Origin: Oscillospiraceae bacterium
GTDB lineage: Bacteria; Bacillota; Clostridia; Oscillospirales; Oscillospiraceae
Length of the DNA stretch: 14,284 nt
Reading direction: 5' to 3'
Assembly (NCBI GenBank): GCA_017936205.1
Contig: JAGBGB010000271.1
Coordinates: forward strand, 1 to 14,284
In this document: piece after piece, positions 1,748-14,168 of the stretch
How the letters are laid out: the number at the start of each line of letters is the position of its first letter
How positions within the stretch are numbered: position 1 is the first letter of the stretch
Translations under genes and position numbers: made by a program
The notes under the pieces: generated by a model
What the model was told of the DNA's origin: nothing
The model's input: the letters and a program-made list of their open reading frames with translations, nothing else
The model's database searches: none

Positions 1748-3730
1748 ATGGCAAAGAAACAAAGCTACGGAAACGAAAGTATTACCTCCCTGAAAAATGA
1801 AGATCGAGTGCGCTTGCGCCCTGCGGTTATTTTTGGCTCTGACGATCTTATCGGCTGTCAGCATGCTGTGTTCGAGATCCTTTCCAATGCCATTGACGAG
1901 GCTCGTGAGGGTCATGGCGACCTGATTATTGTGACCCGTTATGCAGACCAGAGCATTGAAGTAGAAGACTTCGGCAGAGGCTGCCCCGTGGACTGGAACG
2001 AGAAGGAGCAGTGCTACAACTGGGAGCTGGTCTTCTGCGAAATGTATGCCGGCGGCAAGTACGACAAGAGTGCTGCAGGCACCAACTATGAATATTCTCT
2101 TGGCCTCAACGGTTTGGGCACCTGTGCTACCCAGTATGCCTCGGAATTCTTCGATGCGCGAATCTACCGTGACGGCTATAAGTACAGCCTCCACTTTGAA
2201 CGGGGCCGAATTGTAGGAAAAATGAAGAAGGAGCCTGCGGATCGGAAGAAGACCGGCTCTCTCTTCCATTGGAAGCCGGATCTGGATGTTTTTACGGAGA
2301 TCAATATTCCTGTGGAATACTATCTGGACGTCCTGAAGCGGCAGGCTGTGGTCAATGCAGGCATTACCTTCCGTTTCCGTAATCAGGTGGGCAGTAAGTT
2401 TGAGACTACAGAATTCTGCTATGAGAAGGGCATTGTGGATTACATTAACGAGCTGACAGAGGGGAATTCCTTCACCATGCCCCAGTATTGGGAAACAGAG
2501 CGGAAGGGTCGTGACCGTGCAGACAAGCCGGAGTACAAGGTCAAGCTCACTGCTGCAGTGTGCTTCTCACGGAATCTGAACCGCCTGGAATACTATCACA
2601 ACTCCTCTTGGCTGGAGCACGGCGGCGCCCCTGATCGGGCGGTACGCAACGCCTTCGTCTATGCCGTTGATGCCTACCTGAAGCAGAACGGTAAGTATAC
2701 CAAGAACGAAAGCAAGATCACCTTCCAGGATGTTGCAGATTGCTTGGTCATTGTGACCAACTGCTTCTCCACCCAGACCTCCTACGAGAACCAGACCAAG
2801 AAGTCCATTAACAACAAGTTCATTCAGGAGGCGATGACGGAATTCTTCCGCTCCCGTCTGCAGGTCTACTTCATTGAGAACAAGGCAGAGGCGGACAAGA
2901 TCGCAGATCAGATCCTGATCAATAAACGCAGCCGTGAGACTGCGGAGCATGCCCGTATTACAGTGAAGAAGAAGCTATCCGGCACTCTGGACATTGCCAA
3001 CCGTGTGCAGAAGTTTGTGGACTGCCGCAGTCGGGATGCCAGCAGACGGGAGCTGTATATTGTCGAGGGCGATTCCGCTATGGGCTCTGTAAAACAGTCC
3101 CGTGATGCGGAATTCCAGGGCATTATGCCTGTCCGAGGCAAGATCCTCAACTGCCTGAAGGCGGACTATGGCAGGATCTTCAAGAGCGACATCATCACTG
3201 ACCTGCTCCGAGTTATGGGCTGTGGCGTGGAGACCAAGGATAAGAGAGTGAAGGACCTGACCGCTTTCAGTCTGGATGCCCTGCGCTGGAACAAGATCAT
3301 TATCTGTACCGATGCGGATGTTGACGGCTTCCAGATCCGCACCCTGATCCTGACCATGCTGTACAGACTGGTTCCCACCCTGATCCGTGAGGGCTATGTA
3401 TATATTGCAGAATCCCCCCTCTTCGAGATCAACACCAAGGACAAGACCTGGTTCGCCTACAGTGAATCAGAGAAGGCTGAGATCCTGAAGTCCATCGGAT
3501 CCCAGAAGTATACCATTGCCCGATCCAAGGGCCTCGGCGAGAACGAGCCGGAAATGATGTGGATGACCACCATGAACCCGGAAACTCGCCGCCTGATCAA
3601 GATCATGCCGGAGGATGCAGAGAAGACTGCTATTTACTTCGATCTGCTCCTTGGAGATAACCTGAGCGGTCGTAAGGAATATATTGCGGAAAATGGCAGC
3701 CTGTATCTGGATATGGCAGATATTTCCTGA
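1748..3730 (+). CDS. Divergent type IIA topoisomerase, GyrB/ParE-like subunit
   Basis: This 660-residue ATPase/TOPRIM subunit should drive strand passage together with the GyrA/ParC-like protein at 4966-7200. Domains: GHKL ATPase (about 20-220) with Glu43 and Asn47 in FEILSNAIDEA, Asp74 in VEDFGRGCPV and GLNGLG (119-124); transducer with the QTK loop (349-351); TOPRIM with EGDSA (440-444), PVRGKILN (461-468) and DADVDG (522-527); and a C-terminal motif KGLGENEPEMMWMTTMNPETR (594-614). The length is ParE-like and lacks the large insert of E. coli GyrB. Departures from the usual sequence: DADVDG is followed by Phe528-Gln529 rather than x-His, GLHG is GLNG, and DDGRG is DFGRG. ATG 1748 is chosen because GAGGAG lies four bases upstream and YGNESITSL matches the N-terminal arm; the frame is open back to 1493 but that part is non-coding leader. 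Certain as a family; its role as a second topoisomerase is inferred. Confidence 0.93.
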   Translation: MAKKQSYGNESITSLKNEDRVRLRPAVIFGSDDLIGCQHAVFEILSNAIDEAREGHGDLIIVTRYADQSIEVEDFGRGCPVDWNEKEQCYNWELVFCEMYAGGKYDKSAAGTNYEYSLGLNGLGTCATQYASEFFDARIYRDGYKYSLHFERGRIVGKMKKEPADRKKTGSLFHWKPDLDVFTEINIPVEYYLDVLKRQAVVNAGITFRFRNQVGSKFETTEFCYEKGIVDYINELTEGNSFTMPQYWETERKGRDRADKPEYKVKLTAAVCFSRNLNRLEYYHNSSWLEHGGAPDRAVRNAFVYAVDAYLKQNGKYTKNESKITFQDVADCLVIVTNCFSTQTSYENQTKKSINNKFIQEAMTEFFRSRLQVYFIENKAEADKIADQILINKRSRETAEHARITVKKKLSGTLDIANRVQKFVDCRSRDASRRELYIVEGDSAMGSVKQSRDAEFQGIMPVRGKILNCLKADYGRIFKSDIITDLLRVMGCGVETKDKRVKDLTAFSLDALRWNKIIICTDADVDGFQIRTLILTMLYRLVPTLIREGYVYIAESPLFEINTKDKTWFAYSESEKAEILKSIGSQKYTIARSKGLGENEPEMMWMTTMNPETRRLIKIMPEDAEKTAIYFDLLLGDNLSGRKEYIAENGSLYLDMADIS

Positions 3731-3751
3731 GCCGCAGATCCTGTCACATAG

Positions 3752-4555
3752 ATGAAAGCGAAAATGATTTATATTCTTGTTGCATTCTTTCTGTGCTGTT
3801 TGGCATATTTTCTCTGGGAGAACTGCCATTTCACAGTGACAAAGTATGTTTATGAAAGCGAAGCCCTTCCCTCTGCTATGGATGGACTGCGGATCTTGCA
3901 GCTGTCGGATCTGCATGGACAGTCCTTTGGCAAGGACAATGAGAAGCTTCTGAATGCCCTTCGCAACTGCAAGCCGGATGCCATTATGATCACAGGGGAT
4001 CTGATCGACAGCACCTTTACCGATCCTGCTGCCGGGATCCGCTTGGTGGAGAGGTTGGTGACCATTGCACCTGTTTGCTACTGCACCGGCAATCACGAGC
4101 ATCGATTGGAGGAGACGGAGCTGCAAGGATTTCTGTCAGATTTGGCAGCCATCGGCGCCACCGTGCTGGCAGACAGGGCCGTTTCCTTCCGTGGAGGCAT
4201 TCTGGTGGGACTGACAGATCCCACCGCAAGGGAGCCTCAGGCGCTGAAGAAGCTGCTGGAGCCAATGGGAGAGGAATGCTTCACCCTGCTGCTGTCCCAC
4301 AAGCCCCATTATTTTAGCAATTACACCCAAGCAGATCTGGTGCTCTCCGGGCATGCTCACGGCGGGCAGCTTCGCCTCCCTCTGCTGGGGGGATTGTATG
4401 CGCCGGGACAGGGCTTCTTCCCGGAATATACCAAGGGCTTCTACAGCTTAGAGAACACTACCATGTTAGTCAGTCGCGGTGCAGGCAACAGCCACCGCAT
4501 CCCCCGCCTGTTCAACACCCCGGAGCTGATCCTCCTGACCCTCCGCAGACCGTAA
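3752..4555 (+). CDS. Membrane-anchored metallophosphoesterase (YkuE/YaeI-like)
   Basis: This 267-residue calcineurin-type phosphoesterase has one N-terminal membrane helix (residues 5-22), so the catalytic domain probably faces outward. The two-metal site is complete: Asp53-Leu-His55, GDLID (82-86), GNHE (113-116), SH (182-183) and GHAHGGQ (200-206). The arrangement matches the YkuE/YaeI group, some members of which act on phospholipid or UDP-linked precursors; the substrate here cannot be read from sequence. It starts 22 bases after the topoisomerase stop codon with no convincing ribosome site, so it may be translated by coupling or from the ATG at 3764. It lies between the two topoisomerase subunit genes without an evident functional link. 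No strong terminator follows. Confidence 0.9.
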   Translation: MKAKMIYILVAFFLCCLAYFLWENCHFTVTKYVYESEALPSAMDGLRILQLSDLHGQSFGKDNEKLLNALRNCKPDAIMITGDLIDSTFTDPAAGIRLVERLVTIAPVCYCTGNHEHRLEETELQGFLSDLAAIGATVLADRAVSFRGGILVGLTDPTAREPQALKKLLEPMGEECFTLLLSHKPHYFSNYTQADLVLSGHAHGGQLRLPLLGGLYAPGQGFFPEYTKGFYSLENTTMLVSRGAGNSHRIPRLFNTPELILLTLRRP

Positions 4556-4613
4556 CAGGACCAGACGGACAGTGGACAGCTGACAGTTTCCGTCTTAGGC
4601 TCTGCTGTCGTTC

Positions 4614-4819
4614 AAATTCCGATTTGTCGCACAGTTTGATTTACCGCTGCGTAGGGGCGCGCATTGCGCGTCCGGTTCATGACGGAACGCCATGAACACA
4701 AAAACCACCGAAAATAATGTATTTCCCAAAAATCGAAACATTTTTCACAACCACCAATTCTTGGCGTTTGTCGGACGCGCAATGCGCGCCCCTACGAATG
4801 GTACGATAAATCGGAACTT
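4614..4819. mobile_element. 206-bp inverted-repeat element, MITE-like
   Basis: A perfect 24-bp inverted pair (4651-4674 and 4772-4795; core GGGGCGCGCATTGCGCG) is nested inside outer ends that match at 16 of 19 bases (4614-4632 and 4801-4819, AARTTCCGATTTRTCGYAC). The 97-base middle holds no credible gene; it contains a small palindrome GTTCATG/CATGAAC (4675-4681 and 4691-4697). Related copies occur at 14112-14168 and, diverged, at 1-100. A non-autonomous transposon or a dispersed palindromic repeat fits. No target-site duplication could be confirmed. Confidence 0.65.
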
Positions 4820-4846
4820 GGCTGAAAGAGCTCTGCGCGTTAGAAA
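4818..4846 (+). promoter_or_regulatory. Possible promoter for the GyrA/ParC-like gene
   Basis: TTGGCT (4818-4823), a 17-base spacer, then TAGAAA (4841-4846) is the best promoter-like pair seen before ATG 4966. The -35 box lies across the right end of the inverted-repeat element. The match is weak; read-through from the upstream run is an alternative. Confidence 0.25.
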
Positions 4847-4965
4847 CGAATTTACCTATATGGGCAGCTGTCCGCTTTCCACCGTTAACGCAAACATCCC
4901 CTCCTCTCTTGGATGGATGGTTTTAAATGCTGGGAATTTCATCTCCCTGAAAAGGAAGTAATCAT

Positions 4966-7200
4966 ATGGCAAGAAAGAAGAAAGAACCGGAACTGAAGAA
5001 AAATATTGACACTTCCCGTGTGGAGGGTCTGCGGGCAGAGGTGCTGGAGCAGCCTATTACGGACACCTTGACCCTGAACTATATGCCCTATGCCATGAGT
5101 GTCATTGTATCCCGAGCCATTCCGGAGATCGACGGCTTCAAGCCCTCTCATCGGAAGCTGCTGTATACCATGTACAAAATGGGTCTGCTCAACGGGCCCA
5201 AAACAAAATCCGCTACCATTGTCGGTAAGACCATGCAGCTTAACCCTCACGGCGACGGCGCCATCTATGAAACTATGGTCCGTCTGGCCCGTGGCAACGA
5301 AACACTGCTGGTTCCCTTCGTGGATTCCAAGGGCAATTTCGGCAAGGTGTACTCCCGAGATATGGCATATGCTGCCTCCCGATATACGGAAGCTAAGTTA
5401 GAAGCCATCTGTCAGGAGCTGTTCCGTGACATTGATGAAGAAACTGTGGATTTTGTCCCCAATTATGACAATACTACCGAGGAGCCCACTCTGCTGCCCA
5501 CGGCATTCCCCAATGTGCTGGTTTCGGCCAACATGGGTATCGCCGTTGGTATGGCAAGCAATATTTGTTCCTTCAATCTTCGGGAGGTCTGCAAAGCCAC
5601 TGCCGCATGGATCCGTAATCCCAACTGCGATCTGTTGGAGCTGATGCCTGCCCCGGACTTTTCCACCGGCGGCGAGATCCTCTATGATATTAAGGAAATG
5701 GAGGAGGTCTACCGCACCGGCAGAGGCAGCATCAAGATCCGTGCCCGTTGGCGTTATGTGAAGGAAGGGAATCTGATCGAGATCTATGAGATCCCCTACA
5801 CCACCACTACGGAGGCTATTATCGACAAGGTCGCAGAGCTGACCAAGGCAGGGAAGATTCGTGAGATCTCTGATATGCGTGACGAAACTGACCTGAACGG
5901 CTTGAAGCTTGCCATCGACTTGAAGCGAGGAGTAGATCCCGACAAGCTCATGCAGAAGCTTTTTAAGTCCACCCCTCTGCTGGACAGCTTCGGCTGCAAC
6001 TTCAATTTGCTCATCGCCGGGATGCCCAGAGTGCTGGGCGTTCGTGAGATCATCGAGGAATGGACGGCTTGGCGTACGGAATGTGTCCGCCGCCGAGTCT
6101 ACCATCGGAAGCAGAAGAAGTCCGAGAAGCTACACCTGCTTAAGGGCTTGAAGCGGATCCTGTTAGACATCGACAAAGCCATCCGCATCATTCGGGAAAC
6201 AGAATCTGATGCAGAGGTCATCCCCAATCTGATGATCGGCTTCGGCATTGACAAGGTTCAGGCAGAATATGTAGCCGAGATCAAGCTGCGCAACATCAAC
6301 AAGGAATACATCCTCAAGCGCACCCAAGAGGTAGACAGCCTGGAGGAGGAGATCCAAGAGTTAGAGGACATTCTCCGTAGCGAACGGAAGATTCGTAATA
6401 TTATTATTAAGGAATTAGATGCCATCGCAGATAAGTACGGCAAGGATCGTAAAACCGGTATCGTCTTCGGTGGAGACATCGAAGAGGAAGAAGCCGTACC
6501 CGATTATGCTATTACGGTCTTCGTATCCAAGGAGGGGTATTTCAAGAAGATCACGCCCCAATCTCTGCGTATGTCAGGGGAACAGAAGTTCAAGGAGGGT
6601 GACAGCCTGAGCTTCTCTCTGGAAACCCAGAATTCTGCGGAGATGCTGGTCTTCACCGACAAGTATCAGGTCTACAAAGCCCGCTGCTCTGACTTCGAAG
6701 ACAGCAAGGCTTCTGTGCTGGGTGACTATCTCCCGGGCAAATTAGGCTTCGATGAGGGCGAGGGGATCCTGCAGGTTTGCTTCCCCGGAGATTACAGCGG
6801 CAATATGATCTTCATCTACGAGAACGGAAAGGTTACCAAGGTAGAGCTGTCCACCTATCAGACGAAATCCAATCGCCGCAAGCTCACGGGGGCATACTGC
6901 GACAAGAGTCCCTTGAAGGCTGCCTTCCTACTGAAGGAGGATGTCCAGATGGTACTGTACTCCACGGAAAATCGTGCTCTGATCTTCTCGACCGCACAGC
7001 TTGCACCTAAGACCACCCGTGCCACACAGGGCGTGGCTGTTATGACCCTAAAGAAGAAACATCTGCTCCATCGTGCTGCCTTATTAGAAGGCAGCGGCAT
7101 TGTCAACCAGTCCCGCTACCGTACCAAATCCCTGCCTGCCGCCGGTGCTTTGTTGAAGCCCGAGGATGCAGAGGAAAAACAGATGGAATTGGAGCTGTAA
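4966..7200 (+). CDS. Divergent type IIA topoisomerase, GyrA/ParC-like subunit
   Basis: This 744-residue subunit cleaves and rejoins DNA and should pair with the ATPase subunit at 1748-3730. The breakage-reunion domain starts near residue 37 (LNYMPYAMSVIVSRAIPEIDG). The catalytic Arg139-Tyr140 lie in AASRYTEAKL, and the DNA-bending Ile192 in GIAVGMASNI. The tower/coiled-coil part runs about 360-490, followed by a C-terminal domain (about 512-725) with degenerate blades such as TRATQGVAVMTL (684-695). No GyrA box (QRRGGKG) is present, so wrapping gyrase activity is unlikely and a ParC-like decatenase is favoured. The region corresponding to E. coli GyrA 78-87 reads NPHGDGAIYE (93-102): the quinolone-contact Ser is Gly98 and the acidic residue is Glu102. 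ATG 4966 has AAAGGAAG seven bases upstream. It heads a run with the YitT gene, three bases downstream. Confidence 0.93.
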   Translation: MARKKKEPELKKNIDTSRVEGLRAEVLEQPITDTLTLNYMPYAMSVIVSRAIPEIDGFKPSHRKLLYTMYKMGLLNGPKTKSATIVGKTMQLNPHGDGAIYETMVRLARGNETLLVPFVDSKGNFGKVYSRDMAYAASRYTEAKLEAICQELFRDIDEETVDFVPNYDNTTEEPTLLPTAFPNVLVSANMGIAVGMASNICSFNLREVCKATAAWIRNPNCDLLELMPAPDFSTGGEILYDIKEMEEVYRTGRGSIKIRARWRYVKEGNLIEIYEIPYTTTTEAIIDKVAELTKAGKIREISDMRDETDLNGLKLAIDLKRGVDPDKLMQKLFKSTPLLDSFGCNFNLLIAGMPRVLGVREIIEEWTAWRTECVRRRVYHRKQKKSEKLHLLKGLKRILLDIDKAIRIIRETESDAEVIPNLMIGFGIDKVQAEYVAEIKLRNINKEYILKRTQEVDSLEEEIQELEDILRSERKIRNIIIKELDAIADKYGKDRKTGIVFGGDIEEEEAVPDYAITVFVSKEGYFKKITPQSLRMSGEQKFKEGDSLSFSLETQNSAEMLVFTDKYQVYKARCSDFEDSKASVLGDYLPGKLGFDEGEGILQVCFPGDYSGNMIFIYENGKVTKVELSTYQTKSNRRKLTGAYCDKSPLKAAFLLKEDVQMVLYSTENRALIFSTAQLAPKTTRATQGVAVMTLKKKHLLHRAALLEGSGIVNQSRYRTKSLPAAGALLKPEDAEEKQMELEL

Positions 7201-7203
7201 ATC

Positions 7204-8079
7204 ATGGAATATACAAAGAAGCAAATCCTACGGAATATGCTGCTGGTGGTGATCGGCAGTCTGATCTCCTCCACAGGCTTCGTCATGTTCTTTGAGCCTG
7301 CGGGCATTAACTGCGGCGGCATCAGCGGTGTTGCTATGCTGATCAAGTATGTGGCAAAGCACCCGCTTATTACCATTGGTTCCGTCAGTGCTATTATTAA
7401 CATTCCTCTGTTTCTGTTGGGCTTTAAGAAGATCGGCAAATACTTCTTCTTCGGCTCCATGCTGGGTATGGCTGCCTCTGCGCTGGGCTTCGACCTTCTG
7501 GGCAAGGTGGTGCCCATTCCTGAGGTAGAGCCTCTGATCGCTGTGATCTTTGGCGCTGCCATCATCGGCGTGGGCTTGGGTATTGTGTTCCTTGCCGGGG
7601 CCTCTACAGGCGGGGTGGACATTCTTGCCCGTTTGTTGAAGTTTAAATTCCGCAACTGCCCCATTGGCAAGCTGATCCTGGTGTTCGATATGGGTACTGC
7701 CATTGCTACAGGCATCGTTTATCAGGATTTTAACAACACTCTGTACAGCGCACTTGCCCTGTTCCTGTCCTCGGTGGTGCTGGACTATGTGATCTACAGC
7801 CTGGACTATGCCAAGGTAGCTTTCATCATTACGGACAAGTACGCAGAAGTGTCTAAGGCGATCTCCAAGGATGTGGATCGTGGCATTACTCTGCTCAATG
7901 GCAGGGGCTACTACAAGCAGGAGGACAAGCTGATCCTTCTGTGTGCGGTGAAGAAGAAGCAGCTTGCAGAGCTGAAGGAAGTGATCTACCGTGTGGATCC
8001 CACGGCCTTCGTGATCCTGCAGGATGCCCAGCAGGTGTTGGGTGTGGGATTCAAACGCTATGACCGCTTCGAGCTGTAA
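7204..8079 (+). CDS. YitT-family membrane protein
   Basis: This 291-residue protein has the YitT layout: five or six membrane helices (about 9-30, 56-75, 80-99, 110-132, 155-173, 178-200) followed by a cytoplasmic DUF2179 domain (about 222-276, DRGITLLNGRGYYK onward). Family glycine motifs are GINCGGISGVAML (34-46) and GASTGGVDILARL (132-144). The family is widespread in Bacillota and is thought to be a transporter or channel, but no substrate is established, and none is indicated here. It begins three bases after the stop codon of the GyrA/ParC-like gene, with GGAG (7191-7194) inside that gene's last codons, so the two are co-transcribed and probably translationally coupled. Confidence 0.9.
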   Translation: MEYTKKQILRNMLLVVIGSLISSTGFVMFFEPAGINCGGISGVAMLIKYVAKHPLITIGSVSAIINIPLFLLGFKKIGKYFFFGSMLGMAASALGFDLLGKVVPIPEVEPLIAVIFGAAIIGVGLGIVFLAGASTGGVDILARLLKFKFRNCPIGKLILVFDMGTAIATGIVYQDFNNTLYSALALFLSSVVLDYVIYSLDYAKVAFIITDKYAEVSKAISKDVDRGITLLNGRGYYKQEDKLILLCAVKKKQLAELKEVIYRVDPTAFVILQDAQQVLGVGFKRYDRFEL

Positions 8080-14111: not shown

Positions 14112-14168
14112 AAATCCCGATTTATCGCACAGTTTGATTTACTCCTTCGTAGGGGCGCGCATTGCGCG
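14112..14168 (+). repeat. Truncated copy of the intergenic inverted-repeat arm
   Basis: These 57 bases match the left arm of the element at 4614-4670 in 52 of 57 positions without gaps, including the full core GGGGCGCGCATTGCGCG. The similarity stops sharply at 14168, where the intact copy continues with TCCG but this one continues with GAGGCTGCTG. No second arm is present in the window. Confidence 0.75.

Follow-up and report, generated by a model that had tools for sequence, protein, structure and literature searches.

The gene pair at positions 1748 to 7200 of the window, by which we mean the whole stretch of 14,284 nucleotides, probably encodes a functional type IIA topoisomerase (A2B2) of the phage kind (phrog_28877; Geobacillus virus E3/Bacillus phage). 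This pair appears to be fixed in the chromosomes of a large clostridial lineage as a core pair, and there it would stand in for topoisomerase IV (topo IV) beside gyrase. We denote the window-type topoisomerase and its clade as X, and the gyrase and topo IV types as canonical. Judged by sequence, the window pair is the orthologue of a second topoisomerase that is common in its family and class.

The B subunit gene (1748..3730, forward strand, as are the A gene, the phosphoesterase gene and the motifs below; 660 aa, phage-type) encodes a GHKL ATPase, a transducer, a Toprim and a C-terminal GyrB domain. The A subunit gene (4966..7200, 744 aa) encodes the breakage-reunion core and a strand-rich C-terminal domain without the GyrA box. 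The Pfam matches are DNA_gyraseB, Toprim and DNA_gyraseB_C in B, and DNA_topoisoIV in A. Both ORFs run without interruption. The reading frame of B is open upstream of 1748 and would give 745 aa from the ATG at 1493; we have set the start at the ATG at 1748 because the relatives begin at the same ATG.

For the residue counts we have used 34 B and 25 A proteins of X, the two numbers being different since proteins shorter than 560 aa (5 A, 2 B) were dropped beforehand. In E. coli numbering, Glu42, Asn46, Asp73, Lys103, the QTK motif, Glu424, Asp498 and Asp500 are kept in all 34 B rows, and Arg32, Lys42, Arg121 and Tyr122 in all 25 A rows. In the window, the Toprim glutamate lies in EGDSA (B residues 440-444, 3065..3079), and the aspartates equivalent to Asp498, Asp500 and Asp502, the last also kept in 34/34, lie in TDADVDG (residues 521-527, 3308..3328). 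Tyr140 of A, within SRYTE (codon 5383..5385), corresponds to the catalytic Tyr122 of E. coli GyrA. That is, the GHKL ATPase, the QTK loop, the Toprim E and DxD, and the catalytic Arg-Tyr by which type IIA enzymes are recognized are all present. The unbroken ORFs and the residue alignment confirm the initial annotation of this DNA in that both subunits are complete and keep their catalytic residues.

The draft genome of the organism (2.46 Mb, 364 contigs, 72.5% complete) holds exactly two A-type and two B-type Pfam matches, i.e., the window pair and, side by side on contig C122, a gyrB and a gyrA. The latter genes score over the NCBI cut-offs (gyrB 964.9 vs 882.4; gyrA 1177.9 vs 877), and the window proteins are 33% (B) and 35% (A) identical to them. 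Since the genome also has this canonical pair, the window pair is a second type IIA enzyme, and the candidate reading that it is the only gyrase of the genome was rejected. The search for another, canonical gyrB/gyrA set thus found one, and the earlier claim of an additional type IIA enzyme next to the housekeeping gyrase is borne out. A ParE could be hidden in the missing part of this 72.5% complete genome.

The family scores separate the two pairs clearly. The best NCBIfam scores of the window proteins are 491.8 (B) and 593.7 bits (A), both under every gyrB, parE, gyrA and parC cut-off; the cut-off nearest to being reached is that of the broad subfamily PRK05561 (654, against the 593.7 of A). 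On the phage topoisomerase II profile phrog_28877, they score 847 and 803 bits. For the genome's own gyrase the order is reversed (382/422 bits on phrog_28877 vs 1009/1188 on NCBIfam), and a different genome of the class has a canonical second pair that scores 366 and 453 bits on phrog_28877. Among the annotated records of the phage collection, the closest are Geobacillus virus E3 (54.7% identity in B, 48.0% in A), Bacillus phage vB_BcoS-136 (48.8%, 48.6%) and FADO/PJN02/2S-4 (40.4%, ~45% with 45.4% as the lowest). By sequence family and by clade, the window pair belongs to the phage-type topoisomerase II, a kinship that the initial annotation missed.

Several records filed as viral should be read with care. 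Ten listed unannotated gut 'Bacteriophage sp.' scaffolds rank above E3 in the phage collection (61-70% identity); they are probably bacterial DNA and were not counted as phage evidence, and two of them (L126, L127) were included in the FastTree trees. One contig filed as viral in IMG/VR (L086) has two serine recombinases upstream of its X pair and a YitT gene behind it. We considered it as a clostridial phage with X and rejected it: the order downstream is the same as in the window (YitT by Pfam, and one more gene), where a YitT-family gene begins at 7204, three bases past the stop codon of A. Because the gene order after the X pair matches that of the window, the contig looks chromosomal, that is, like host DNA beside an element. 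Two unverified GenBank 'Listeria phage' clones (L120, L121) appear to hold host gyrase and topo IV genes.

The window pair itself is not located in a phage genome: X is a core gene in many genomes, and of the four window neighbours scanned by Pfam, three have non-phage families and one has none. The X copies of Tepidibacter and Alkaliphilus were considered as prophage genes, and this was rejected as their neighbours are ordinary.

We have built FastTree trees of 114 B and 98 A proteins, and IQ-TREE trees under a mixture model with 51 B, 49 A and 46 joined rows; the two sets give a concordant picture. In the IQ-TREE trees of B, A and the joined subunits, a branch with 100/100 support sets all gyrase and topo IV rows, E. 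coli included, apart from X and the phage-type rows. The phage-type side comprises X plus the E3-, FADO-, pBS32- and 949-type enzymes; in FastTree and in a wider B tree (102 rows), the canonical side also takes in some phages, including phage G. X forms a single clade in all three (100/100 in B, 100/98 in A, 100/100 joined). In the wider B tree, from which 28 of 80 viral rows were left out as near-copies, a 42-row clade (support 100) contains 13 X rows and 29 rows from viruses, viral contigs or a plasmid (L024) and nothing else, with the viral row L100 outermost. Overall, one and the same split divides the A and the B trees, and both subunits lie on its phage-type side, together and outside the canonical clades. 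The two earlier claims, that the subunits are a co-diverged pair and that they differ from the standard GyrB/ParE and GyrA/ParC, both hold, and X is firmly placed as kin of the phage enzymes, apart from GyrB/ParE and GyrA/ParC.

We have then surveyed the occurrence of X. It is found in 38 of 41 genomes of the family (the three without it are at most 83% complete), in 75 of 79 genomes of the order, and in 70 of 118 sampled genomes of the class, while outside the class only one of 59 genomes (G289) has it, as confirmed by the tree. No second canonical B gene was found in any of the 70 X-carrying class genomes, compared with 16 of the 48 without X. Each of these carriers has X plus one canonical match, save G174, which has none, and trivial extras in G214 and G224; the canonical match is only a fragment in G119 and G141. 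A third enzyme in G214 and G224 was considered and rejected, the extra matches having E values of 1.5e-4 and 2.7e-5. The other 32 of the 48 genomes without X have a single canonical B gene alone, and topo IV should therefore be dispensable for some relatives. Thus 32 of the 118 class genomes (G117 among them) have a single B-type topoisomerase gene, of the canonical type. The mutual exclusion of X and a second canonical B gene gives a Fisher p of 1e-7 among genomes that are related to each other, and the GyrB tree provides 3 independent contrasts, which are too few for significance.

A GyrB tree was built with 100 rows, 56 of them with X; the X label changes 4 times on it, against a mean of 32.8 when shuffled, and 2 times without G167 and G289. 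The drawn tree, in which one row is misplaced, has a 57-row clade with 53 X and one four-row clade without X. Of the three nearest GyrB sisters of G167, two (G139 and G212) are without X and possess a second canonical B gene; G167 itself has X and lacks such a gene. This pattern fits one old gain of X plus a few transfers, with mainly vertical inheritance. In a scan of named species, the titles of the best 80 of at least 592 carriers are apparently all Clostridia or unspecified Bacillota, and include Flavonifractor, Lawsonibacter, Flintibacter, Monoglobus, Cellulosilyticum, Tepidibacter and Alkaliphilus. The X of the window groups with those of Flavonifractor, Flintibacter, Lawsonibacter and Vescimonas (Oscillospiraceae). 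The Ruminococcus albus plasmid pRUMAL01 carries a lone X-type B gene (L019, 5992-7974) beside a replication initiator gene, and no A gene is annotated or was found within the 14 kb examined.

In enzymes of the type IIA family, the B dimers close on ATP, and the A dimers together with the Toprim domain of B cut one duplex and pass another. X would accordingly pass one duplex through a cut in another in an ATP-driven manner, with the A subunit of the window presumably cutting via Tyr140. The GyrA box, Q(R/K)RGG(R/K)G, is present in 17 of 18 GyrA rows, and is absent from the A subunit of the window and from all of the 25 X, 15 E3-type phage and 13 ParC-type rows; by this mark the window pair is not a DNA gyrase. 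Since no DNA wrapping is expected without the box, X should relax and decatenate, and would be unable to wrap DNA for negative supercoiling. The kept catalytic residues and the absent box point to the job of topo IV, and as the carriers are without a second canonical B gene, this is the simplest job for X. Since no other second type IIA enzyme was seen in the carriers, X most likely separates sister chromosomes; we infer from the lacking box and the lack of another second enzyme that it decatenates and relaxes without negative supercoiling, i.e., that it would remove catenanes, knots and positive supercoils after replication.

Is X just an ordinary ParE/ParC of Clostridia that has diverged fast? 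Such a reading would agree with its topo IV-like architecture without the GyrA box and with its place as a second enzyme beside gyrase, but we regard it as highly improbable. AU tests reject X with the Gram-positive ParE (p 2.65e-5, B) and with the Gram-positive ParE/ParC in the joined subunits (p 7e-5), so that, as with the NCBIfam scores under the cut-offs, the two subunits do not lie inside the ParE and ParC clades. Moreover, where other class genomes do have a canonical second pair, it groups with gyrase and away from X, and X is not fast, being 57-78% identical to the window across many families. The initial annotation had supposed a distinct job, with a special growth phase or drug tolerance among its guesses, that is, a special-purpose enzyme on top of the normal set. 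Its point of support is the quinolone-contact serine, which is position 83 of E. coli GyrA. In the window, the QRDR equivalent NPHGDGAIYE (A residues 93-102, 5242..5271) has Gly98 in place of Ser83 and Glu102 in place of Asp87; among the 25 X rows, position 83 is Met in 9, Ala in 7, Gln in 5, Ser in 3 and another residue in 1, while position 87 is Glu in 23. His78 is replaced by Asn in 24 of 25 rows and in the window. The changed position 83 predicts a weak quinolone contact, and drug tolerance might be suggested as a role of X. However, since the organism's own GyrA has Ala at position 83 and is likewise without Ser, no special tolerance role follows from the glycine. X is also almost universal in the sampled family and order, and its carriers showed no other second type IIA enzyme. 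A special-purpose enzyme is thus improbable in our judgement: the second enzyme beside gyrase stands, but it is not peculiar to this organism, being the standard second type IIA enzyme of the family (38/41) and of much of the class (70/118).

The direction of transfer is a different matter. X could be an old third cellular type IIA lineage in Bacillota, from which the phages acquired their enzymes. X is the sister of the E3/BcoS/FADO phages, and not inside them, in the A tree (95/92) and in the joined tree (99/99), all phage rows as one clade with X outside is not rejected by the AU test (p 0.26 in B, p 0.49 joined), and Alkaliphilus and one genome outside the class also have X. On the other hand, in the B tree X is closest to E3 (89/94), next to BcoS-136 (91/86), and lies within three phage layers; all the 29 other rows of the 42-row clade are phage, viral-contig or plasmid rows, with a viral one outermost; X is limited to one main clade of the GyrB tree; and phage monophyly drops to a borderline p of 0.0425 when L113 and the long-branched viral row L100 are added, for a group that was named after the trees were seen. 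Weighing these, we consider the cellular origin rather unlikely. Because phage monophyly, which is itself neutral on direction, is not rejected in two of the three tests, the kinship with phage enzymes is firm while the step from phage to bacterium is unproven, and phages are likely, though not proven, to be the donors of X. With somewhat better than even confidence, we suppose that a phage replication enzyme displaced topo IV once in the ancestor of a large part of Clostridia (Flavonifractor, Flintibacter, Monoglobus, Cellulosilyticum and their kin), was since inherited as core, and was later passed to a few others (G167, and G289 in another class). The ancestor would have acquired X from a phage and then lost, or would already have lost, parE-parC.

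The initial annotation also described the subunits as parted by a phosphoesterase and a repeat element, which is correct. A calcineurin-like metallophosphoesterase (PF00149, 3752..4555), not part of the topoisomerase, is followed by a 207-bp dispersed repeat (4614..4820, unstranded) with perfect 25-bp inverted arms at 4650-4674/4772-4796. Repeat comparison finds at least 40 copies in the draft genome, the window copy included (at least 90% identity over 183-207 bp), as a lower bound with 40 of 222 candidates scored; the repeat may be a MITE or REP-like element. A 57-nt piece of it (91%) occurs again at 14112-14168, near the end of the window. Among the 69 class genomes with both X genes, B is followed by A on the same contig and strand in 59, and the two lie on separate contigs in 10. 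The gap measured between the matches has a median of 51 bp, and the 1238 bp of the window is the largest. In the nearest relative (genome G031, locus L047), B and A nearly abut, and Vescimonas has ~1.1 kb between them with a different small gene inside. Given this spacing in relatives, the phosphoesterase and the repeat are most likely recent local insertions, a local oddity that is uninformative on function. As a side observation, the A-gene match has one or two in-frame stops in four class genomes (G168, G126, G184, G181); that of G126 is in two open pieces of 487 and 254 aa, by sequencing error or real.

Topo IV is seen as one of the basic enzymes of bacteria and as a main drug target. Should many gut Clostridia indeed have a phage-type enzyme as their second type IIA topoisomerase, the textbook rules for ParC/ParE, such as quinolone-contact residues, inhibitor design and parE/parC annotation, need not apply to them. 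If true, the case would also illustrate clearly how a replication enzyme of viral type can assume a housekeeping role across a whole bacterial lineage, and X would offer a directly testable system for the function of phage topoisomerases. In present records, the X genes go under the product names 'toprim domain-containing protein' and 'DNA topoisomerase (ATP-hydrolyzing) subunit A'. Passages of a 2022 paper (PMC9348778) describe gyrA-like sequences without the GyrA box in phages of Bacillus or Lactococcus; our literature search, covering papers outside subscription, found none that describes a topoisomerase of phage type among the core enzymes of Clostridia.

Compared with known systems, X resembles DNA gyrase (GyrA2GyrB2) in domain order and catalytic residues, but has no GyrA box and is 33% (B) and 35% (A) identical to the gyrase of its own genome. 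It resembles topo IV (ParC2ParE2) as a second type IIA enzyme beside gyrase, with the catalytic residues and without the GyrA box, whereas it lies in a separate clade and under the parE/parC cut-offs. The topoisomerase pair on a plasmid of B. subtilis NCIB 3610, which we take to be pBS32, and that of Geobacillus phage GR1 are outer relatives in the phage-type clade (36% B, 39% A); they are more distant, plasmid- or phage-borne, and have an A subunit of ~660 aa. The record of Geobacillus virus E3 (L020, 7998-12101) gives a single product joined from two pieces, and notes an in-frame stop and a fusion by peptide sequencing. The closest likeness is to the topoisomerase II of E3 and of the Bacillus phages vB_BcoS-136, FADO, PJN02 and 2S-4 (54.7 to 40.4% in B, 48.6 to 45.4% in A), with which X shares the clade, the lacking GyrA box and, for E3, BcoS-136 and FADO, the order of B then A. 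Unlike these E3-type phage enzymes, X is chromosomal and near-universal in a bacterial lineage, and it keeps the Asp of EGDSA in all 34 rows where the phage rows have EGKSA (15/15).
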